A stretch of 64,000 nt of DNA from Streptomyces sp. NBC_00287 (GTDB lineage Bacteria; Actinomycetota; Actinomycetes; Streptomycetales; Streptomycetaceae), in the NCBI RefSeq assembly GCF_036173105.1, contig NZ_CP108053.1, forward strand, positions 8,990,001 to 9,054,000, in the 5' to 3' direction. This document shows, piece by piece, positions 6,529 to 51,962 of the stretch. The notes below the pieces were generated by a model, which worked only from the letters and a program-made list of their open reading frames with translations, was not told the DNA's origin and ran no database searches. Made by a program: the position numbers and the translations under genes. Position 1 is the first letter of the stretch. The number at the start of each line of letters is the position of its first letter.

Positions 6529-9500
6529 TCAACCTCGTTCGGTACGGATGGGGCGGACGTTCCTTGCCTGCGGTCCCCTTTCGCTTTGGACGACGCGGAA
6601 TCGGACCCGTTGTCCTTCGTCGAGTGAGCGGAAGCCCTCTAGGTCGATCGCGCTGTGGTGGACGAAGACGTCCCGGCCGTTGTCCAGGGTGATGAAGCCG
6701 TATCCCTTCGCTGTGTTGAACCACTTCACCGTGCCTTCCTGCTGGTAGGCCGGATTTCGGAGGACGAGCTCGGGGGAATCGGGGTCGTAGTGGTTGAAGA
6801 GCGAGACGTTACCCGTGTCCCTGCGACGGCGGATCCTGCCGGCGATGTCGGCCAGGCTCAGGAACTCCGGGCCGCCCGGGAGACCCGAGATAAGCACCGA
6901 AACGAGTTCCTTCGTGAAGGCGTGGGGAGCCTTTCCCGCCTGCCGTTGTGAGGTCAACAGCGTCCAGCTTCCCCGCGGTGTGATGCGCGGTGCGAAGAGC
7001 GACCAGATCCTGTCCATGTGTTCGGCGTCGGCGTCGAGGACAAGGACTTTGAACCGGGCCGGACTTTCGTCCAGCAGCGAACGAAGGTGCCGGATGGAGA
7101 GAGCGGACGTGAGCGGGCGGTCGCGACTGGTGTCGGAGAAGGTGAGGAAGGCGTCCTCGGCTGTCTCGATCAGGTGGCCCGCGTAATAGAGGAAGAGCGT
7201 GTGCTCGGCCTGCCCGGCCACGTCTGACAGTGCCCGGTCGAAGGTCTCGCGGAATGGGCGGTTCCATACGACCGAGACGTTACCGGCAGCGAAGATGCCG
7301 TCCTCTCGTCTGCGTCCCAACGCGTACGCCAGCTCGTGCGCCGCCTCGGCGGCACCGGGCAGCTCCGGGAACTCCTGGTAGCTGTCGACTCCGATGAGCA
7401 CGGCACGGGAGTGGGTGGGGTCGAGGAGGGCGGGGTTCGGTGACTGTGCAGGCACGGGCGTGGAGATCGGCGTGGGGGCTGTGATCCGCGTGGCGAGGAG
7501 CCGGTTGCTCTGCTCGGTGTATGCATTCACCACCCCGACCAAGGTCCCGTGCAGGTCGACAACGGCCGCACCGACTGTGGGCCATGGCGCGGAGACGGTG
7601 GGCTCGAGCACGTAGTGGTCGCTCGCGCCGGTCTGGACCCGGCAGCGGAGCAGCGCCAAGGTGGAATCACCGTCATTGTCGAGACCGACGACCATGACCC
7701 GTTCCCCGCGGGGTGGCACGGGGGCTTGCGCCAGAGGCGGCACCTTCGCCTGCCACTGGAACCCTGAGGGCGTCACAAGGGACAGATGGGCCTGGCCGTC
7801 CCGAGCGGCCGACGGGAATTGTCGCGCAAGCAGGGCGCTTTCCCTGTCCCAGAGGCGCAACTGCACACGCAGCTCCATGTCGGGCTGCTCCCGATGTGCG
7901 CGCAGGTACGGAACCTCCGGTATCACCACAACGCCTTGATCGGAAAGGAGGATTCCCGAACTCAGCACGTTCCTCCCGTTCCAGACCCGAACCAATCGTC
8001 GCGCGGCATCCTTGATCAGTTGTCCGATGACTGCCGAGGATTCTGCGGTGGCCTCCAGGAACGCGAAGTTGTTGTCGAGGTATCGGGCCACTTCGTCCAG
8101 CCCTCTGGCCCGTGCGGACTCGGCGAGAGCCGGCAGTGAATCCGGGTCGGCGTGACGGGCCAGTACCGACCAGAGGGCCTCGGGCGGGTCGATGCGCGGA
8201 GTCTGCTGTCGGTCAGCCCATTCCACGGACTCACGGATCAGATAGCTCTCGGGCCGGTCGGGCATCTGGATCATAATCGGCGGTGCCCCGGAAGCCGAGT
8301 CGCAGGCATAGGCCAAGGCGGCCGAAAGCCCGTCGTACGACTGGTCCCCATGGTTCTCGTCGTTGAGGTAGACGCCCGTGGCCTCTTCCAACAACTGTCG
8401 TGACAGCACAGGTCCATGCCCCAGACGCTGGATGTCCAGCGCCGCCCGGAGCAGGCTCTTGGCGAACGATGGCGCCTCGTGAAGGCGCCTCATCATGGCA
8501 TCGACCTCTGCGACCCCGGGAGAGAACGGCACGACATCGATGCGACCGAGCAGGAAGCGGAAGCTGTTTGCTTCCTCGGACTCCTCGGTCAGCAGTAAGG
8601 CCATGTCCGCGGGGGTGAGTTCGCCGACGACCACAACAGGTCCGTCCGCCGGTTCGGCGAGCCCACGGAGAAGGAGGGGATGGGTATCGGAAGCGAGTGC
8701 GAAGGGCAGGAATTCGCGCAGCACCACGACGGAACGAGGACGACGCAACTGGGCTGCCTCTCGGACCAGTTCGTCGGGATCCGTTGGCGACCAGACCGTC
8801 CAGTCGCCCGGCAACCCAGCAATCGCCCGCGTGATGGCCGTCGTCTTCCCGGTACCGGCTTCGCCCAACACCAGTACACATGCACTGCGCCCCTGCTGGG
8901 CCCGTGAGATCACTTCGCGTAGATGTTCATCCGCCTCGCCCTCCACATAGGCGGACATGGGCTCGTCTTCCGTGACGAGTTCCGCAATCCGCTGTGGCCC
9001 CGTTGCGACCCCCGTCCCAACCCGAGCCGCAAAGGGCGAAGCCTGCGCAGCGAGCCCCCGGCTGCCGTCCCCACCCCCCGCACTGCGCCCCGCAAGAAAG
9101 TCCCCGCCGCTACTGGCCCCCCGCTCGCTGACCCCTGCCCCCATCTCCCGCCGCACCACCTCCTGCACGGAAGTGATCGCGTCCCGCCGCTGCCCCCCGA
9201 GCAGTGCCTCCCGTACCCCGGGCCGGAAGTCGAACGGCACCCTGTCCGGGTCCGCCGCGCTCTCCCCCTCCCATGGCGTGAAGAGGCCGCCCAGCGCAAC
9301 CTCCGCCAGATGCCCGTGCTCCGACTCGGGAAGCATGATCTGGCGGACGAGGTTCATCACCGGCAGACTCAGCGGTACGGCGGACAGGTACCCGGCGAGC
9401 CGTTGGGCGACCGGCGACGCGCCCGCTCTGAACCGCCGTAGGATCTCGTCGACTTCGTCGGCCACCGGCTCCCGCGCAGCGACCGGCAGCACCTGCGCCG

Positions 9501-10544
9501 CACGCGGAATCGTCAGGCACGGCACCCGCGTCCACTGCCCGTTTCCCGCCACCAGCTTCGCCAGGACTGCGACGGACGCGGCTCCGGCCTCCACCACGGG
9601 GATCGTGATGCCTCCCGGCGCCGAACGGCGTCGGCGGCTCCGCGTGGCGGGGCCCAGCCGCCAGGAGGTGTTGGGCGAGGCGGGTCCGACCGAGCGGACC
9701 AGTACCGGCTGCGGGCGTACCGCGCCCCGGTCCCACAACCGGCGTGGCAGCACATTCAGCAGTGCCACCGGACCGTGGGCGGACCACTGCCGCAGCATGT
9801 GCGCGACGGAGGGCGCGGCCCAGCCGCCCGCCACCGTGTCGGTCACCACCAGGACCAGCCGATGGCCCGACGGGTCGGACACCTCCTGCACGCTACGCGG
9901 CTCGCCGTCCGGGGTACGGGCGACGGACAGCTCCGCGCCCGCGTCCGTCCCCCGCAGGTACCACGTCCGCACATCGCGGAAGATGCCCGTCTGTACGAAC
10001 ACGCGCCGCAGTTCACCCACCAGGTCATGCCACAGCACCATCGAATGGTGGGCGTCCACGACGAGCGCGAGGTCCAGCCAGCGGCCCCGGCGCGGGCGCA
10101 ACACGGGGGTCGGCAGGCGCTGTTCCACCGTCCGGCGGACCGTGAGCTCCTCGTCGAGCTCCAGTTCGACATCGCGGGACCGCATCCGCCTCGTGCTCCG
10201 GCCCAGAGGCCGCAACGCCCGCATCAGAGCCAGCGGATCCCGTAGTGATGCGGCGCGGCGCACGCGGACGAGGTCGACGCCGTCCCGGGCCTGACCAGGT
10301 GTGTCCGTGACATCGCAAGCGTTGTAGAACTCCTCGGCCGGCCCGGACTCCACCTCGCCAGGGCCCGCCGCAGGGGGCTCGGGCGGCGGCGGCTCCTCGG
10401 CCTCGACGCCCATGTCCGGCAGATCGCGTACGGCGGGCTCCTCGGAGCCGCCACCGATCCGCGCGGCCAGCCAGAGGATGTCCGCCACCTCCTCGGGCCC
10501 CGCATTCACGCCGGACGCCTCCAGAGCGCGGAACAGCTCCTCGA

Positions 10545-10548
<4 letters not shown>
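6529..10548 (-). CDS. SAV_2336-type conflict-system protein: vWA-like region, P-loop ATPase, pseudo-trypsin, pseudo-caspase and cold-shock domain
   Basis: This 1339-residue protein is the last gene of locus A. Residues 1-31 ([26 protein letters not shown]) and about 95-460 match the SAV_2336-type region, including a vWA-like strand [11 protein letters not shown] with a non-canonical metal site. Residues 555-730 form a P-loop NTPase with Walker [10 protein letters not shown] at 562-570 and a strand RSVVVLREF. Residues about 850-1020 resemble a trypsin-fold domain, but the His, Asp and Ser positions read VVVIPEV, TLALLRC and [10 protein letters not shown], so it should be inactive. Residues about 1047-1260 resemble a caspase: YYAGH keeps His1125, but the Cys position reads LDAD (Asp1174). 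Residues 1271-1335 are a cold-shock domain with KGYGFI and VFVHH intact. The ATG at 10548 overlaps the MoxR stop (ATGA). Confidence 0.85.
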
Positions 10549-11615
<1,067 letters not shown>

Positions 11616-11641
11616 TCAACTCCCCTTCTCCGGCGACTGAT

Positions 11642-13573
11642 TCACGAGGACAGCGACCGCCTTCCCGGAATCCGCCCGGGGTCGTCCCAGAGCAGGGCGA
11701 GCGGGCGATGTCTGGCACGGGCGCGTCTGAGCACGGCGGGCAGGGCCTCCACGTCGAGCACGGCGGGCGGCGTAGCCCCCAGCGCCGTACGAAGGGATTC
11801 GTCCGTGCCGGGGGAGGGGCGGCGCCAGACGGCGATCGGTATTCCGCCGTCGAGTACGGCCTCCAGCGCGTCCATGACCAGCGGCTCCGTCACGTCGGCC
11901 AGGACGCAGACGGGTGGCTCTTCCAGTTGCAGGACGTCGGCCAGGCCGTCCGACACATCGGCGTCCCCGACGTCGTGCACGGCCTCCGGATGTCGGCCGC
12001 CATGGGTCTCGTACCACTGCCATTTGGTCCGCCACGGAGCTTCGGCGAGGCCCTGACGTTCCTCAGGGCAGCGCAGGACGACCTGGTACCGGCCGCCGAG
12101 CGCGCAGGTCTTGTTGCCGCGTCCTGTGGACACCTGCCATGTCTCGAACGGCTCCTCCAGCAGGTCGTACGGGACATGGAATTCGATCCGCCCGAGGTTG
12201 CGCGCGGAGGCGTTGGCCAAGAGGTGGGCGCCCAGGGTCGTGCGAACGGCGTCCAGGTCCATGGGCCGGTCGTAGTCGCCCACGTTCTCGAAGTCGCCCT
12301 GGTACGACCATAGTTGAAGCCAGAAGAGGTCGTCCCCTTCGGGTGTGAGCCGGACGTGCAGTGCAGGGGGCTCGGTGGCCCGCGCGGGAGGGACGGGGAC
12401 GGGATCGGCGCCGAGTCGTTCGCGGGTGCGCTCCACCCAGGCGTTCGCGGCGGCGGCCCAGTCGGCGAAGGGGGAGCGGGAGGCCAGGTGCCGCATGAAC
12501 GGCAGCGCGAGCGGGACTGCTCGGCTCGTTCCCTGGCGGCTGTCGAGGTCGCGGACGATCTCCGTCAGGTGCGGGGAGGGCAGTGAGTGCTCGGCGGGGG
12601 CGGCACAGCCCGCCACCTCGAAGGCCCAGCGGTAGGCCTCGTACGTGTACGGGGGCACCTTGCGGTCGGTCAGCAAGTTCCCGAGTTCCGTCCAGGCGGG
12701 CTGGTCGAGGACGGGCGCGCCGGTCGGTGCGGAGGTGGTGCCGTCGTCCGTCCAGTGGTCTCCGTAGAGAGACGATCCGTCCCAGGCCCTGGCGACCTCG
12801 AACTGCGGCTCCTGCCAGGCCGTCTCGTGCGCCTTCATGACAGCGAAGTCCGCCTGGACGTCCCGGGCGATGTCGACCAGGCCCAGGGTCGCCTGCTCCA
12901 GCGTCCGGCCCTCCAAGCGCTTGAGCAGGGTGTCCGTGAACTGGCCCGCCTCCAGCTCCGCCCGGTTCCGCGCCGTCTCGCCGGGGCGTGCCGCGTAGAG
13001 CGTGAACTGCCGACGGTCGGGGACGGGCTGACCAGCCGGGTAGTCGACCCTGACGAACCCCAGACGGCCGTACCGCCTCTCGTCGATCCGGCAGGAGTCG
13101 CCGATGGTGACGAGACGCCGGAAACGCCCGCGGCTCACCTTGTCCGACCGCCACCAGCGCAGCGCCGAGGTGAGGTTGAGGTGGGTGGTGTGACCGGCCG
13201 TGGCGTCGGCGTAGGGGAGGAGCAGCTGGTGGGTGGGGTCGAGGAAGCCGTGCCCCGCCCAGTAGAGCCACAACAAGTCGCCGTCGCAGCAGGGGAGTTC
13301 CTTGAAGAGCGCTTCGTCGACGTTCTCGCGCGTGGCCGGCTTCGCTTCCACGCCGGCCTCGTTGCGGGTCAGGGGCGACAGCAGCAGACATAAGTTGCTC
13401 TTGGGGACACCGGCGGTGCCGGTGAGCCAGTCGGCGAAACGTACGGCGTCGCGGGCCGGCCCGGACAGGTTCATGCGGGGCCGGTCGATCTCGTAGGACT
13501 CGATGCCCACGACGAGTGCGAAGGTCCGTTCGGGCGCGATCAGCAACTCGGGGACGGCGGACAGGCCCGTCAC
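11642..13573 (-). CDS. Caspase-like protease fused to VMAP-C domain (conflict locus A effector)
   Basis: This 643-residue protein starts with a caspase-like peptidase domain (residues about 15-290). TFALVVGIESYE is the first strand, LYWAGHGF carries catalytic His108 and VTIGDSCRID carries catalytic Cys161, so the dyad is intact. The middle (about 290-400) holds a helical segment (YTYEAYRWAFEVAGC, LTEIVRDLDSRQG) seen in both loci. The C-terminal region from about 410 matches the VMAP-C pattern (LWSYQGDFENVG, GRIEFHVPYDLLEEPFE, CVLADVTEPLVMDALEAVL, PIAVWRRP). The GTG at 13573 overlaps the upstream hydrolase stop (GTGA), and the gene is 26 bases before the MoxR gene. In this system type the N-terminal domain is the effector; cleavage of host proteins leading to dormancy or death is inferred from family knowledge. 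Confidence 0.88.
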   Translation of the reverse strand: MTGLSAVPELLIAPERTFALVVGIESYEIDRPRMNLSGPARDAVRFADWLTGTAGVPKSNLCLLLSPLTRNEAGVEAKPATRENVDEALFKELPCCDGDLLWLYWAGHGFLDPTHQLLLPYADATAGHTTHLNLTSALRWWRSDKVSRGRFRRLVTIGDSCRIDERRYGRLGFVRVDYPAGQPVPDRRQFTLYAARPGETARNRAELEAGQFTDTLLKRLEGRTLEQATLGLVDIARDVQADFAVMKAHETAWQEPQFEVARAWDGSSLYGDHWTDDGTTSAPTGAPVLDQPAWTELGNLLTDRKVPPYTYEAYRWAFEVAGCAAPAEHSLPSPHLTEIVRDLDSRQGTSRAVPLALPFMRHLASRSPFADWAAAANAWVERTRERLGADPVPVPPARATEPPALHVRLTPEGDDLFWLQLWSYQGDFENVGDYDRPMDLDAVRTTLGAHLLANASARNLGRIEFHVPYDLLEEPFETWQVSTGRGNKTCALGGRYQVVLRCPEERQGLAEAPWRTKWQWYETHGGRHPEAVHDVGDADVSDGLADVLQLEEPPVCVLADVTEPLVMDALEAVLDGGIPIAVWRRPSPGTDESLRTALGATPPAVLDVEALPAVLRRARARHRPLALLWDDPGRIPGRRSLSS

Positions 13574-14778
13574 CGCAGCGCCTCCGCGATCCGGTCGAAC
13601 ACCGGGTCGAGCCTCCAGTAGGCGCTGTGGGAGACGGGGAAGGGCTGGCGGCTGCGCACCTCGTGGTCGGTGACCCGGCCATCGCCCGCGAAGACCGGTT
13701 CGGCGAGGTAGGCGAGCAGGTCCTTGCGGTCGTAGATGTTGAGCCAGTCGGGGAAACCGGAGGGCAGGGCCGCGCCGGGACGGAGGCCGGCGAGCGCGCC
13801 GAGTTCGTGGAGGAAGGGGGCCTGCGAGCCGACGGTGACCAAGAGCCGTACGGGCAAGGGCGGTTGACGTACGGCGGCCAGGGCGAGGGTGTCCACCAGG
13901 GCGATGCCGCCGAGGCTGTGCCCGATGACGACCGGCGGCTCGGGGCTGTGGCCGATGACCTTCTCCAGGTGGGCGCGCAGCGGCTCGCCGCGTGACTGGT
14001 AGCGCAGGATGTCGCCGACTTCCGAGGCCTTGTCGTGGGTGAAGTCCCCGCGCCAGCGGTCGCGTGCGGTCTGTGTGGTCATCCGCTGTGCCAGCTTGAA
14101 CAGCACCCCCAGCGTCCCCGTCACGACACCGCGGCCCGTGCCGCCGAGCCGGTCGCTGAGCACGTCCACGATCCGGTCCCGCTCGTCACCGGTGCACAGC
14201 GTGGTGTCCCGGGCTTCGGAGAGCAGGACGGCGACCACGGCACGGCTGGTGAGCAGGACGAGCTCGGCCGCGATCGCGTCGTCCTCGGCGGCGAGACACG
14301 CATCGTGGAACTCCTCGGAGTCCGCTACGGCGTCCAGGGCATACCGATAGCCTTCGACGAGCCCGGTCTCCCGGAGCAGTACGGCCAGTTCGTCGCCCGG
14401 ATCGAGGACGCGAGGCAGTCCACGCAGATAGTCCCCCACCACCTCCCCGGGGGACTGCACCCCCGGCAGTCCGAACCCGCCGTCATCGGCCCCGGTACCG
14501 ATCTCGGCGAGCACCCGCAGCTCGCAGAACGGATCGGTCAGGAGCAGCAGCCACTCGGCGGTCTCGGGGTCGTCGTCGAGGTCCGTCGCCACGAGTGGTC
14601 GCATCCCCGGCACGGAGGCGCCACCGGCACTGAGCGTCGCGCCGAACTCGTCACCCCAGTAGCACGGTTCGACCTCCGCTCCCGGGAACCGCTTCAACAA
14701 CCCCGCGCCCACCAGCCGGAACAGCTCATCGAACCGCTCACGACGGACACCGGTCCCATGAACAAAGACGAACCTCAT
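13570..14778 (-). CDS. Alpha/beta-hydrolase (lipase/esterase-like), first gene of conflict locus A
   Basis: This 402-residue protein begins FVFVHGTGVRRERFDELF, the oxyanion HG motif of alpha/beta hydrolases. It has the nucleophile elbow VVIGHSLGGIAL near residue 305 and a late region LLVTVGSQAPFL typical of class 3 lipase-like or PGAP1-like enzymes. The ATG at 14778 is preferred over the open frame upstream because the HG strand follows it directly and GGGGGA precedes it. It overlaps the caspase/VMAP-C gene by 4 bases, so it is probably the leader gene of a four-gene operon. A phospholipid or ester-hydrolysing effector or auxiliary role in the conflict system is inference from position. Confidence 0.82.
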   Translation of the reverse strand: MRFVFVHGTGVRRERFDELFRLVGAGLLKRFPGAEVEPCYWGDEFGATLSAGGASVPGMRPLVATDLDDDPETAEWLLLLTDPFCELRVLAEIGTGADDGGFGLPGVQSPGEVVGDYLRGLPRVLDPGDELAVLLRETGLVEGYRYALDAVADSEEFHDACLAAEDDAIAAELVLLTSRAVVAVLLSEARDTTLCTGDERDRIVDVLSDRLGGTGRGVVTGTLGVLFKLAQRMTTQTARDRWRGDFTHDKASEVGDILRYQSRGEPLRAHLEKVIGHSPEPPVVIGHSLGGIALVDTLALAAVRQPPLPVRLLVTVGSQAPFLHELGALAGLRPGAALPSGFPDWLNIYDRKDLLAYLAEPVFAGDGRVTDHEVRSRQPFPVSHSAYWRLDPVFDRIAEALR

Positions 14779-14911
14779 GCGTCCCCCGACCCCAACGTGC
14801 TTGTGCGGTAGGAGAATAGTCCGTCGGCATGCCACGGGGAGGTTCTGGGGCAATGTTCCTTCGGGTGTGATGGATCGCCGGTTAAGGGCTCACATGGCGC
14901 CCGTATGCTCG

Positions 14912-46019: not shown

Positions 46020-46514
46020 ATGCTCCTTCGCATCGACGCCGACGACCTGCCCGGCCTGACCTGCCTCACCGCCGAGGGCGAGGACCCGGGCTACCGCAAC
46101 GTCCACGTCGCCGTACAACGCCGCGACCGCCCGGCCGAACTCCTCGACCTCCAACCGGGCGATGCGCCGCACGCGACCTGGACCCTGGAGTGCACCACGA
46201 CCGCATCGGCCACCGGCATCGACGTGCGGGGCCCGTACGTGCAGGGCCGCCCGGGCGAGCGGTTCATCTACCTGTCCTGGGGCACCGTCGACGAATCCGG
46301 CACCTTCACCATGTTCCGCCGCGCCAAGCTCATGCTCGACGCCGTCCCCACCGACATCCTCGACACCGCGGCCCGCGACGGCCTGTTGGTCGGCCACCTG
46401 GGCCTGACCGACGCATGCGGCATGCCGCTGTGCGCGCGGGTCGTACCGCCGCGAATCACCTGGACCGCGGAACGCATTCCCGTTCGCCCGGGACAGGCAG
46501 GCAGGGTTTCTTGA
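46020..46514 (+). CDS. DUF5990 family protein
   Basis: This 164-residue protein starts LLRIDADDLPGLTCLTAEGEDPGYRNVHVAVQRRDRPAELLDLQPGDA, the usual DUF5990 opening, with SCWGTV-like LSWGTVDESGTFTMFRRAKLML. The fold is probably beta-rich and the role is unknown. Its TGA overlaps the TTG start of the GntR gene (TTGA at 46511). Confidence 0.78.
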   Translation: MLLRIDADDLPGLTCLTAEGEDPGYRNVHVAVQRRDRPAELLDLQPGDAPHATWTLECTTTASATGIDVRGPYVQGRPGERFIYLSWGTVDESGTFTMFRRAKLMLDAVPTDILDTAARDGLLVGHLGLTDACGMPLCARVVPPRITWTAERIPVRPGQAGRVS

Positions 46515-47665
46515 ACGAGGACGATCGGGGGGAGAGCGCAGGCTCCGTATACGACCGCGTTGAGCGGGCGCTCGTGAGCGAGATCGAGGCTGGGACTTAC
46601 CCCCTCGGCGCGATGCTTCCTCCCCAACGTGAAATGGCCGACCGTTTTGGCGTGTCCCGCGACACGGTGCAGCGTGTGCTGAAGTCGCTGCAGGACCAGG
46701 GATACATCGAGTCACGGCAGGGCAGCGGAAGCCGCGTAGTCCGGACACCGAGCGGACGCGGAATTCCAACGAGGACGGCGCGCGTTGCCCCCCACTTACG
46801 AGAGGAGACCAGCCGCGGGGAGAACTCAGGCTCCGTACACGATCGCGTCGAGCGGGCGCTGTTGAGTGAGATCGAGGCTGGGACTTACCCCCTCGGTACG
46901 AGGCTTCCAACCCAACGTGACGTCGCCCGGCGTTTTGAGGTGTCTCGCGACACGGTGCAGGGCGTGTTCAGGTCGCTGCGGGACCAGGGGTACATCGAGT
47001 CACGGCAGGGCAGCGGAAGCCGCGTTGTCCGGACGCCGAGCGGACGCGGAAGCCGGGCGAGGACGGACCAAGGTCCTGTGCGCCTTGACTCCCATATAGA
47101 CGAGGCCTTCAGGTCCCGGGACGTCACCATCGATGCCTTCACATTGACGGGTGAGTCGCTGGACCTGCACATGCGTTTGTGTGCCGAGAAGATGCGGGCC
47201 GGGGAACTCAGGCCCGAGTCGATTCGTGTGCGACTGCTGCAGCCCCGGACCGACGGCGACTTCAAACTGGCCACGCCGGTGGGTGATCCCGAAGACCGAC
47301 GGGCACTTGAGCGTCTCCGAACTCTGCGGTTTTCGTTCACGGCCTCGATCAGCGGCGTGCTCCGAGAGCTTCAGGCCGTGGGGCAGGTGGCGAGCGTCAG
47401 CTTCGAGCACAGGGAGACTCCGATGGCTCCCATGCAGAAGCTGTACCTGTTCAACGGCACCGAGGTCCTCGCCGGCTACTACACCGTCCTACGGCGCCCG
47501 GTACACCTCGAGGCGGAGGAACAGATCGAGATATACGACGTCCTCGGACTCGGCGCGGCCCTCTACCACCACTCCGCGACCGGCGCGCCCCCGGATCCGG
47601 AGAGCACCGCCATCGTGAACAGGGCCAGGCGATGGTACGAGCACATGTGGGCGAACGCGGAGTAG
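46511..47665 (+). CDS. GntR-type regulator with duplicated winged helix and a C-terminal sensor domain
   Basis: This 384-residue protein starts at TTG 46511, overlapping the DUF5990 stop (TTGA). Residues 8-84 and 104-180 are two nearly identical GntR winged helices (VERALVSEIEAGTYPLGAMLP and VERALLSEIEAGTYPLGTRLP, then SRDTVQ...DQGYIESRQGSGSRVVRTP). Residues about 195-384 form another domain: DVTIDAFTL, ESIRVRLLQP, SVSFEHRETPMAP, LYLFNGTEVLAGYY and a final RRWYEHMW. The C-terminal domain is similar in order and wording to the C-terminus of the SAV_2336 protein at 49869-51962. The start is supported by the lack of a better codon and by the continuous HTH. It precedes the caspase gene by 173 bases and probably controls locus B. 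Confidence 0.8.
   Translation: MNEDDRGESAGSVYDRVERALVSEIEAGTYPLGAMLPPQREMADRFGVSRDTVQRVLKSLQDQGYIESRQGSGSRVVRTPSGRGIPTRTARVAPHLREETSRGENSGSVHDRVERALLSEIEAGTYPLGTRLPTQRDVARRFEVSRDTVQGVFRSLRDQGYIESRQGSGSRVVRTPSGRGSRARTDQGPVRLDSHIDEAFRSRDVTIDAFTLTGESLDLHMRLCAEKMRAGELRPESIRVRLLQPRTDGDFKLATPVGDPEDRRALERLRTLRFSFTASISGVLRELQAVGQVASVSFEHRETPMAPMQKLYLFNGTEVLAGYYTVLRRPVHLEAEEQIEIYDVLGLGAALYHHSATGAPPDPESTAIVNRARRWYEHMWANAE
46532..47050 (+). repeat. Tandem duplication of the GntR winged-helix coding segment
   Basis: The segment 46532-46762 recurs at 46820-47050 with a constant 288-base (96-codon) offset. Runs identical for 29 and 35 bases occur, for instance around ggctgggacttacc and gagtcacggcagggcag. 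This is a recent-looking in-frame duplication, not two genes. Confidence 0.9.
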
Positions 47666-47838
47666 TACTCGGCACCGGACTGACCCAAGAGCGAATTCCC
47701 GCTGCTCACCCCGCGCTATGGTCGTATCCGGCAAAGGGAAGGGCCAAGGGGGCGAGAGGGTTTGCGGGTCCTTTGTATGCACGGCACGGGCGTCGGAAAG
47801 TTCCCCGCGGCCCGCCGGTCAGGGTCAGAGGCGGCCGG

Positions 47839-49872
47839 GTGACCCCTCAGCCCGACGACCTGCCCGACATCGCAGCCCAGCGAACGTACGCCCTTGTGGT
47901 CGGGGTGGAGTCCTACGACGTCAGCAGCGGCTGGCGGCTACCGGGAGCGGCCCTCGACGCCCACCACTTCGCCCGCTGGCTCACCGGTTCCGGCCAGGTG
48001 CCGCCCGCCAACGTGCGTCTGTTCCTCTCCCCGTTGCCCTCGACCACCGTCCCCTGCGTGGACGACTTTCCGGAGCATCTGCCGGCGACCGAGGCGAACA
48101 TCAAACAGGCCCTCCTGCATGAACTCCCGTCCTGTGACGGCGACCTGCTGTGGATCTACTGGGCCGGACACGGCTTCGTCGACGACCACGGAGACGCGCT
48201 GCTGCCCTACTCCAACGCCGCCGCCCCCAGCATCAGCAATCTCAACCTGGGCTCGGCCCTGCGCTTGTGGAAGTCCACCTCCGTGGCGCATGGACGCTTC
48301 CGGCACCAGGTCGCCGTCGTCGACGCCTGCCGCGTGGACCGTCGGCGCACCCCCAAACTGCACTTCGAGGCACACGAATACGGCAAGGGGGCCATGACCG
48401 ACGAGCGCCGTCAGTTCGTTCTCTACGCGGCACCGCCAGGAGGGGCGGCCCGGAACGAGGCGGGTCGGCAGTCGGGCCTTTTCACCAGGTCGCTGCTGCA
48501 CAGGCTCGATGGTTTGAGCGTCGGGCAGGGCACGCACCGCCTGACGGCCATCGCGCATGGAGTCCAGGCCGACTTCGATGAACTCCGCCAGGCGAAAGGG
48601 GGCATCTGGCAGACACCGACCTTCGAGATCCACCGCGGATGGAACGGCTCAGCGATCTTCGGCGACGCCTGGACCGCATCCGCCCCCAGCGGCGCCCCGC
48701 AACTGGACCAGGAGGCCTGGAACCGACTCGCCGCCCTGACCAAGGGCCGTGGTCTGCCGCCGTACGCCCACGACGCCTACCGCTGGGCCTTCGACGTCTG
48801 CGAGTGCGCTGCCCCACTGGCCGGCAGCCCGCCCATGGTCGGGCTCACGGAGATCGTCCGCGATCTCGACGCGCGGCAGGGGCGGCCCGGCATCCCGCTC
48901 ACCCTGCCGTTCGTCCGTTACCTGGCCGCTCACGCCCAGGACCGGGAGTGGGGCGCAAGGCTGGACGCCTGGGTGGAAGACACCCGCGCCCGGATCGGCG
49001 CCGGGCCGGTACCACCCGCACCGGAACCCCCGACGGAGCCTGCCGCACTCCACGTCCAACTCGCCAAGGACCACAGGCAGGATGACGCGTACACGGTGCG
49101 TATATGGCGGTACGAGGGCCGATTCACCTCGGAGTGGGAGTCCGAGGCCTCCCTCAAACTGTCGGAGGCACGCAGCGAGGTCGGCGGGCGCATCGCGGCC
49201 CTCATCGAGGAGTTCGACGACAGGGACCCGCAGGGAATCGCCCCGGGCGTCGGACGCATCGAGGTGCATATCCCTCGCAAGCTGATCGACGAGGAGTTCG
49301 AAGGCTGGGCGGTCCCCGCCGGGCCGGAGGGCACGTTCGAGCCCATGGGGGTCCTTTTCGAAGTCGTGGTGCGCTGCCCCGACGAGAGAAGGGGAGCCGC
49401 ACGTCAGAAGTGGCGGCAGAAATGGGAGTCGTTCGAACGCCACGGCAAAGGCCGGTGGGAGGCGCCCACGCTCGATGCCCGCCACCCGATCTGGCTCCTC
49501 GCCGAAGACCAGGCGCCGGGCATCCTCTCCAGGCTCCTGCAAGCCGGGGAGCTACCGGTGTGCGTCCTGGTCCCCGGTGACCGTGCACTGCTGAGTGACG
49601 CACTGGACGCCGCGCACATGTCCGGGGTCCCGATCGTGGTGTGGCGGCGGGGCGCACCGCTGAACGGCTCCGCAGGCGATCTACCCTCCGCGCTGACCGC
49701 GTCCGGCGACGAGATCGACCTGCGGAACCTGCCGAGCCGGCTGCGCAGACGGCGTATCGAAGCCAGTGTCGCTCTGTCGTCGGAGCAGGCGGACCAGGGC
49801 GACAGCCACCCCTTCGCACTCCTGTGGGACGATCCGAACCGGAGACCCGACCCCAGGGCACTGAGACCGTGA
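47839..49872 (+). CDS. Caspase-like protease fused to VMAP-C domain (conflict locus B effector)
   Basis: This 677-residue protein is a paralogue of the caspase at 11642-13573. Residues 15-290 are the caspase-like domain: TYALVVGVESYD, IYWAGHGF with His111 and VAVVDACRVDRRR with Cys164, so the dyad is intact. The helical middle has YAHDAYRWAFDVCEC and LTEIVRDLDARQG. The C-terminal region from about residue 400 is VMAP-C-like (ALHVQLAKDH, RIEVHIPRKLIDEEFEGW, PVCVLVPGDRALLSDALDAA, PIVVWRRG). The GTG at 47839 follows the weak RBS AGAGG. It overlaps the SAV_2336 gene by GTGA at 49869. It lacks an accompanying MoxR. Confidence 0.88.
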   Translation: MTPQPDDLPDIAAQRTYALVVGVESYDVSSGWRLPGAALDAHHFARWLTGSGQVPPANVRLFLSPLPSTTVPCVDDFPEHLPATEANIKQALLHELPSCDGDLLWIYWAGHGFVDDHGDALLPYSNAAAPSISNLNLGSALRLWKSTSVAHGRFRHQVAVVDACRVDRRRTPKLHFEAHEYGKGAMTDERRQFVLYAAPPGGAARNEAGRQSGLFTRSLLHRLDGLSVGQGTHRLTAIAHGVQADFDELRQAKGGIWQTPTFEIHRGWNGSAIFGDAWTASAPSGAPQLDQEAWNRLAALTKGRGLPPYAHDAYRWAFDVCECAAPLAGSPPMVGLTEIVRDLDARQGRPGIPLTLPFVRYLAAHAQDREWGARLDAWVEDTRARIGAGPVPPAPEPPTEPAALHVQLAKDHRQDDAYTVRIWRYEGRFTSEWESEASLKLSEARSEVGGRIAALIEEFDDRDPQGIAPGVGRIEVHIPRKLIDEEFEGWAVPAGPEGTFEPMGVLFEVVVRCPDERRGAARQKWRQKWESFERHGKGRWEAPTLDARHPIWLLAEDQAPGILSRLLQAGELPVCVLVPGDRALLSDALDAAHMSGVPIVVWRRGAPLNGSAGDLPSALTASGDEIDLRNLPSRLRRRRIEASVALSSEQADQGDSHPFALLWDDPNRRPDPRALRP

Positions 49873-51962
49873 TCGACAGGCTGCACCAGATTCTCGCGGG
49901 CGCCGGCGTGGAGACGGGGCCTGAGGAACTCGCCGACATCCTGTGGCTGGCCCGCTGCATGGCAGCCCCTCACCAGGCCCCGGTGGCGGACCATCACCCC
50001 AGCCCAACCGGTCGGCCGGGCCGTGCCAAGGGCCCCGAACCCGCCGTACGGCAATCTCCCGCCCCTGGGCCGCCCCGGCCCAAGTCCCGCCGTACGGGCC
50101 CGAAGAGGGGCGACGCCCTGTTCGCCGCCACCGAGCCGCCACGGAAGCCGTCCACCGAGCCCCGGCCCCCGGGCGGTCCCGAAGCCTCGCAGGAGCGAAG
50201 TCGACAGTACGGCGTACCGGTGCGCGTCAGCCGGGCAGCGTCCCTGGACGACCCCCTCGCCGTCATGCGTGCGCTGCGCCCCCTGGGCCGCCGCCGTATC
50301 GCGGGCAACCGCATGGAACTGGACGAGGAGCTGACCGTCGAGGCCGGCATCGACCATCACATGCTGCTGCCGGTCCTACGCCCGATCCGGGACCGATGGC
50401 TCGACCTGACCCTCGTCGTGGACACCCACCGCTCGATGCTGCTCTGGCACGACCTGCTCGCGGAAATCCACACGCTCCTCACCCAGACCGGTCTCTTCCG
50501 CACCCTGCGGATATGGTTCCTGCGCGCCACCGACAGCGCGCGACCGGGCGAGCGCATCACCGTGTCCGCCACCCCCGACGGCCAGCCACGCAGCCCCCGG
50601 GAAGTCACCACCGGCCGGCAGCACGGCCTGATCCTGCTGGTGAGCGACACGGTCTCCGACGTATGGCACCGGCCCGAACTTCGCGAGACGGTCGGACAGT
50701 GGTGCACACACAACGCGGTGGCGCTGCTCAACGTTCTGCCCGAACGCCTTTGGGCCCGCGGTGCCGTCCACCCGGCCCCCTGCCTGATACGCGCCACCGG
50801 ACCCGCCACCCCCAACATCTCCTGGAGCCTCGCCGCACCGCCCGATGACCCCGCGAGCGGCCAACCCCGTCCGCAGGCCGTGCTGCCGGTGGTCGACGCG
50901 TCCCCGCAGATGCTGTCCGTGCTCGCCTCGCTGGTCTCCGGTAGCGGCCGCCGGCACAGCCTGCCCTGCCTTCCGCTGGACGCCGACTGGTCCAAGGGCG
51001 AGTTCCCCGGCGAGCCGCAGCTCGGGCCGGGCGACGACGGGCCGACCGACGCCGGCGACACGGACCGGGCCGCGCTGCGCGCGGTGCGCTGGTTCGAGGA
51101 GAGCGCCTCGCCCGCCGCCAGAGAACTCGCGGGATACCTCTCGGCCGTTCCCCTCACCCTCCCCGTGATGAATCTCGTACGTCGCGTCATGCTCCCCGAT
51201 TCGGACCACGGGCATCTCGCCGAAGTGGCGTTGGGCGGACTCCTGGAGCCCTGGGAGGAGTACCACCGGGCCGACCCGACGTATCTGGAGTTCCGATTCC
51301 TCCCCGGTGTCCGCGACGCGCTCATCGGCGGCCGGCTCCGGCAGCAGATCGCCACCGTGCGCGAACTCGTACGCCAAGAGGTCACCGCCTACCTGGACGA
51401 GCGCCGCACCACCGACGACTTCCCGGCGCTCCGGCACACCACCGCCGAGACCGCCACCCGCATCATCGCCCCCGACGCGGTCCCTTTCGCCCGTACGACG
51501 GCTCCCGGGGCCCCGGCCGTCTCCGACCTGCTCCTGGACGGCATCGCTCGCGCCTTCGAGGAACCCGAGGTCAGCATCGACGCTGTCGTCGGCAGTGCCA
51601 TAGCGCTGCTCGCGGCGGTCCTGCCGCAGGTGCGCCGCATCACCGAAGGGCAGGTGCTGCCCGCGTCGATCCGCGTGCGCCTGCTTTCCCTGGGCGGCGA
51701 GGGGGACAGCGGCGACATCGAGGCACTGCGCCACCTGCTGGAAGATGTGCGGAGCTCACCCATCGAGGTGACCTTCGAGGCGAGGGCCTCCGCGTCGCAG
51801 CCCCCCACCGAGCTCTACCTGATCAATTCGCGCACCGTGCTGACGTCGTACTTCCACCTGCCCGGGGAGAGCGCGCAGGAACTGCACGCGCAGCCCGAGG
51901 AGCGGCTGGAGGAGACCCTGGAGTGGTTCAACTCCTGGTGGGAGCTGCTCGGGGAGCGCTAG
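49869..51962 (+). CDS. SAV_2336-type protein with GntR-shared C-terminal domain (conflict locus B)
   Basis: This 697-residue protein starts at GTG 49869, overlapping the caspase stop. Residues 1-30 (IDRLHQILAGAGVETGPEELADILWLA) and 110-500 align with the N-terminal half of the locus A protein, including [40 protein letters not shown] and [35 protein letters not shown]. The following AAA, protease, caspase and cold-shock regions of the locus A protein are missing. In their place residues about 557-697 carry VSIDAVV, ASIRVRLLS, IEVTFEARASASQPP, LYLINSRTVLTSYF and EWFNSWWE, matching the GntR regulator's C-terminus. Confidence 0.85.
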   Translation: MIDRLHQILAGAGVETGPEELADILWLARCMAAPHQAPVADHHPSPTGRPGRAKGPEPAVRQSPAPGPPRPKSRRTGPKRGDALFAATEPPRKPSTEPRPPGGPEASQERSRQYGVPVRVSRAASLDDPLAVMRALRPLGRRRIAGNRMELDEELTVEAGIDHHMLLPVLRPIRDRWLDLTLVVDTHRSMLLWHDLLAEIHTLLTQTGLFRTLRIWFLRATDSARPGERITVSATPDGQPRSPREVTTGRQHGLILLVSDTVSDVWHRPELRETVGQWCTHNAVALLNVLPERLWARGAVHPAPCLIRATGPATPNISWSLAAPPDDPASGQPRPQAVLPVVDASPQMLSVLASLVSGSGRRHSLPCLPLDADWSKGEFPGEPQLGPGDDGPTDAGDTDRAALRAVRWFEESASPAARELAGYLSAVPLTLPVMNLVRRVMLPDSDHGHLAEVALGGLLEPWEEYHRADPTYLEFRFLPGVRDALIGGRLRQQIATVRELVRQEVTAYLDERRTTDDFPALRHTTAETATRIIAPDAVPFARTTAPGAPAVSDLLLDGIARAFEEPEVSIDAVVGSAIALLAAVLPQVRRITEGQVLPASIRVRLLSLGGEGDSGDIEALRHLLEDVRSSPIEVTFEARASASQPPTELYLINSRTVLTSYFHLPGESAQELHAQPEERLEETLEWFNSWWELLGER

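Follow-up and report, generated by a model that had tools for sequence, protein, structure and literature searches.

A regulator gene of Streptomyces sp. NBC_00287 encodes a single chain with two GntR winged helices ahead of one C-terminal domain. This two-headed architecture is real and unusual, and one instance of it was found. The gene belongs to a family whose other inspected members are single-headed, and it lies beside genes for a caspase-like peptidase and a SAV_2336-type protein. Its features, located within the whole 64,000-nucleotide stretch of DNA that was analysed (the window), are collected in Table 1.

Table 1. Features of the two-headed regulator gene and its neighbours (window coordinates)
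Feature	Position	Strand	Remarks
DUF5990 gene	46020..46514	+	PF19452 2.6e-53
Regulator gene, two GntR winged helices and C-terminal domain	46511..47665	+	384 aa, TTG start, stop included
Winged-helix copy 1, slower-evolving	46526..46778	+	
Linker between heads	46779..46813	+	disorder predicted; low pLDDT at residues ~82-106
Winged-helix copy 2, faster-evolving; family-invariant recognition-helix Arg replaced by Gly (residue 151)	46814..47066	+	
C-terminal domain, common to genus single-head regulators	47067..47662	+	matches neither Pfam nor NCBIfam models
Caspase-like peptidase with VMAP-C domain, 173 nt downstream of regulator	47839..49872	+	
SAV_2336-type protein, read as vWA-like	49869..51962	+	NF041121 2e-100
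C-end of SAV_2336-type protein, related to regulator's C-terminal domain	51537..51959	+	profile search E 1.7e-13 (window ORFs)

An in-frame repeat of the winged helix

The two copies of the winged helix are spaced 288 nt (96 codons) apart and agree at 216 of 253 nucleotides (85.4%), their longest uninterrupted match being 35 nt (46703-46737); at the protein level they share 66 of 84 residues (BLASTP 7e-46). When the gene was codon-shuffled 200 times, identity across 253 nt never rose above 43.5%. Similarity extends over about 84 of the 96 codons of the repeat unit, the remainder (codons ~90-101) being a non-similar linker, and the Pfam GntR model PF00392 matches the protein in two stretches (2.7e-32). 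A sequence-only reading of this DNA had reported an in-frame 96-codon repeat with 35 identical bases at 46532-47050; the repeat is borne out, and that interval falls inside the repeat pair 46526-46778 / 46814-47066. Its premise that a GntR chain usually has one winged helix also holds, the helix being single in the relatives and double in the regulator.

Tandem repeats are a usual site of assembly and sequencing errors, by which a gene with one copy in reality could appear to have two. Here, however, 37 of the 253 positions differ, more than a duplicated block of reads would show, and the chromosome is complete in one contig (9.64 Mb, completeness 100), so that we regard such an artefact as exceedingly improbable; the 15% divergence of the copies led us to reject it. 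Nor do we favour a one-head form translated from an internal start: the candidates inside helix 1 are weak (GTG/TTG), and inspection by eye revealed no well-spaced start codon after GAGAGGAG. The TTG start of the regulator frame (46511) overlaps the stop of the DUF5990 gene by TTGA, and the two genes are probably co-transcribed.

Both heads resemble functional GntR domains

Sequence searches of the PDB matched GntR regulators, both with the whole regulator and with copy 2 alone, and the Foldseek matches are likewise GntR regulators and their DNA-binding domains. An AlphaFold model, built from two sequences only, places both heads mostly at pLDDT 80-90, with low confidence in the linker (82-106) and in most of the C-terminal domain. 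Base-specific contacts in NagR involve Arg38, Arg48 and Gly69 (PMC4333415). All three have counterparts in each head, R40/R50/G71 in copy 1 and R136/R146/G167 in copy 2, given an offset of two taken from the NagR/YvoA match (query 12-85 to chain 10-83) and assuming no compensating gaps. Both heads thus look competent in fold and contact, as judged from sequence and model. Its family suggests that the regulator controls transcription.

Compared with HutC-type GntR proteins (NagR/YvoA, PMC4333415), the winged helix and the three base-reading positions are alike, but the regulator chain has two winged helices and its C-terminal domain fits no UTRA, FCD or aminotransferase model; the GntR subfamily list used for that comparison was that of PMC6608401. 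The N-terminal PF00392 winged helix places the protein in the GntR superfamily, although it has two copies where the superfamily usually has one per chain. Membership stands at the domain level, a single head being usual but not defining.

Single-head relatives and the history of the duplication

Within the genus, 255 of 393 genomes contain a relative of the regulator (E 1e-20 or better); relatives are also carried by Streptomyces and Nocardia plasmids, where the records are annotated 'winged helix-turn-helix domain-containing protein'. The inspected relatives are typically ~300 aa long and combine a single winged helix with the C-terminal domain of the regulator. In both winged-helix motif and C-terminal domain the regulator resembles these proteins (e.g. 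at L031, and L096 7768-8721), at ~44% identity, and it belongs to their family. It differs from them in having a second helix and in lacking the conserved upstream AGTCCAATTGGACTGGTTG region that most of them possess. No second two-headed member was found among the inspected loci, each of which is single-headed, nor among relatives fetched for their long open frames (360-510 aa). A two-head query spanned both heads only in its own genome when run against 395 relatives and 396 genomes of the phylum, with the best few candidates per genome scored and the samples partly overlapping. A literature search for GntR proteins with two winged helices, with most subscription journals outside it, returned nothing relevant. 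The genome of NBC_00287 also has a mid-chromosome single-head cluster (L098 7285-9502), which comprises two genes, as against three in L096 and L099; the gene absent from it is of the type closest to the window gene.

In a domain tree, copies 1 and 2 are sisters (support 100/100) inside the single-head family, with branch lengths of 0.033 and 0.28, respectively. Because of this tree and the single-head relatives, we attribute the architecture to one event in which the winged-helix segment was duplicated in tandem and in frame. Copy 1 is the closer copy for 20 of 37 single-head relatives and copy 2 for 7. Conservation in at least 90% of relatives marks 29 columns, 26 of which persist in copy 1 and 25 in copy 2. 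The losses in copy 2 include R55 of the recognition helix, present in 37/37 relatives and replaced by G151, and G47 of the turn, present in 31/37 and replaced by E143. Between the copies, dN is 0.12 and dS 0.30 (NG86), with a synonymous excess at Fisher p 0.014; a dN/dS of ~0.4 suggests constraint, as modest evidence. The simplest reading of these sequences is that a single internal duplication took place and that copy 2 then changed faster.

Search for an operator

Upstream regions of the single-head relatives are alignable in 26 of 37 cases, with a GTCCAATTGGACTGGTTG-like core, and a CCAA/TTGG dyad occurs in 23 of 37, whereas in shuffles even the commonest dyad reached no more than 9. A conserved, palindrome-containing AGTCCAATTGGACTGGTTG region, upstream of the single-head regulators L031-L079 (e.g. 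L096 8640-8780, minus strand), is a candidate family operator. This conserved region is absent at the window gene. No AGTCCAATTGGACTGGTTG operator-like sequence with up to 3 mismatches occurs in the window, and the genome as a whole returned 10 matches, below the reversed control (17). A near-palindrome, AGAGCGAATTCCCGCT, at 47688-47703 between the regulator and the caspase gene was set aside, being at about chance level by a rough estimate.

The C-terminal domain and the neighbouring genes

The C-terminal 199 aa of the regulator match nothing in Pfam or NCBIfam up to E 10. No fold is claimed for this domain, for which both models give low confidence. A related sequence forms the C-end of the SAV_2336-type protein encoded downstream (Table 1). 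With that C-end as query, its own genome was the only match among 199, although so short a query missed even known single-head regulators. Homologous caspase/SAV_2336 pairs in four other genomes have no regulator of the window kind beside them, and their SAV_2336 proteins lack the regulator's C-terminal domain.

The caspase-VMAP-C and SAV_2336-type genes (47839-51962), which overlap by 4 nt and adjoin the regulator, resemble components of the VMAP (MoxR-vWA) ternary conflict systems (PMC7159879). The full ternary set of VMAP, vWA component and MoxR ATPase is not assembled beside the regulator: VMAP-C and the SAV_2336-type protein are present, but there is no MoxR gene between 47839 and 51962, and the available portion of that source does not describe such a regulator as a component. 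The missing MoxR may come from elsewhere, such as the gene at 10545-11615, which belongs to the other set in the window. A second caspase/VMAP set in the window (6529-14853, minus strand) comprises an alpha/beta hydrolase, a caspase-VMAP-C protein, a MoxR-like ATPase and a SAV_2336 protein, the last fused to caspase-like and cold-shock domains. According to PMC7159879, effector-associated domains of VMAP systems are proposed to make homotypic contacts, and a domain common to two nearby proteins resembles that logic. A functional link from the regulator to the caspase/VMAP module through the related C-terminal domain is possible.

Discussion

The reading we prefer, to which we give about an even chance of being correct, is a functional regulator that oligomerises via its C-terminal domain and has two flexible heads on each chain, which would raise avidity or allow a longer or extended operator to be bound. 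The in-frame tandem duplication, in a Streptomyces regulator with a GntR-type head, left both heads intact with their base-reading residues, as sequence and model support, and the chain would still oligomerise through the C-terminal domain, giving the oligomer a pair of flexibly linked heads from each chain. Copy 1 would hold the ancestral specificity; copy 2, with its altered recognition helix, would add avidity or read a neighbouring, more degenerate half-site. The regulator may act on the DUF5990/regulator transcript from which it is itself made, and perhaps on the caspase-VMAP and vWA-like genes next to it. Counted in favour, along with the two PF00392 stretches, the sister copies in the tree, the NagR counterparts and the well-modelled heads, are dN 0.12 against dS 0.30, the 25-26 of 29 columns kept and the intact C-terminal domain with its relative in the SAV_2336-type protein; counted against are the loss of R55 and G47 from copy 2, the modest constraint, the operator not found and the restriction of the architecture to one genome.

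The main rival is a near-neutral duplication, in which copy 1 alone binds specifically and copy 2 drifts as an added domain that the protein tolerates. The longer branch of copy 2 (0.28 against 0.033), its Arg to Gly change in the recognition helix and Gly to Glu change in the turn, and the occurrence of the two-headed form in a single genome speak for it. Nevertheless, the gene has acquired no frameshift or stop at a dS of ~0.3, and copy 2 retains the three base-reading positions and 25 of the 29 conserved columns; we consider this explanation rather unlikely. The sequence-only reading had proposed that a chain with two heads might bind an operator as a monomer or span two sites. Its monomer idea, ranked next and doubtful, would have one chain place its heads on both halves of a palindrome, a monomer being enough. 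Two similar heads and a flexible linker of ~25 residues would suit such an intramolecular pseudo-dimer, but the operator was not found in our searches and the C-terminal domain, of a kind that normally dimerises in GntR proteins (PMC4333415), is kept. Because it is kept and such domains normally oligomerise, a four-headed dimer is no less likely than a monomer. A bolder reading, which we consider improbable, would set asymmetric heads on an extended or composite operator and tie the protein to the caspase-VMAP/vWA-like module by the common C-terminal domain; if true, one domain type would join transcription control and effector.

This two-headed chain is a natural one, with an asymmetric duplication, and has close single-head relatives with which to compare it; the effect of head number on affinity, operator length and ligand control can be tested directly. 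The C-terminal domain common to the regulator and the neighbouring conflict-system protein suggests, in addition, a testable route of control for such systems.
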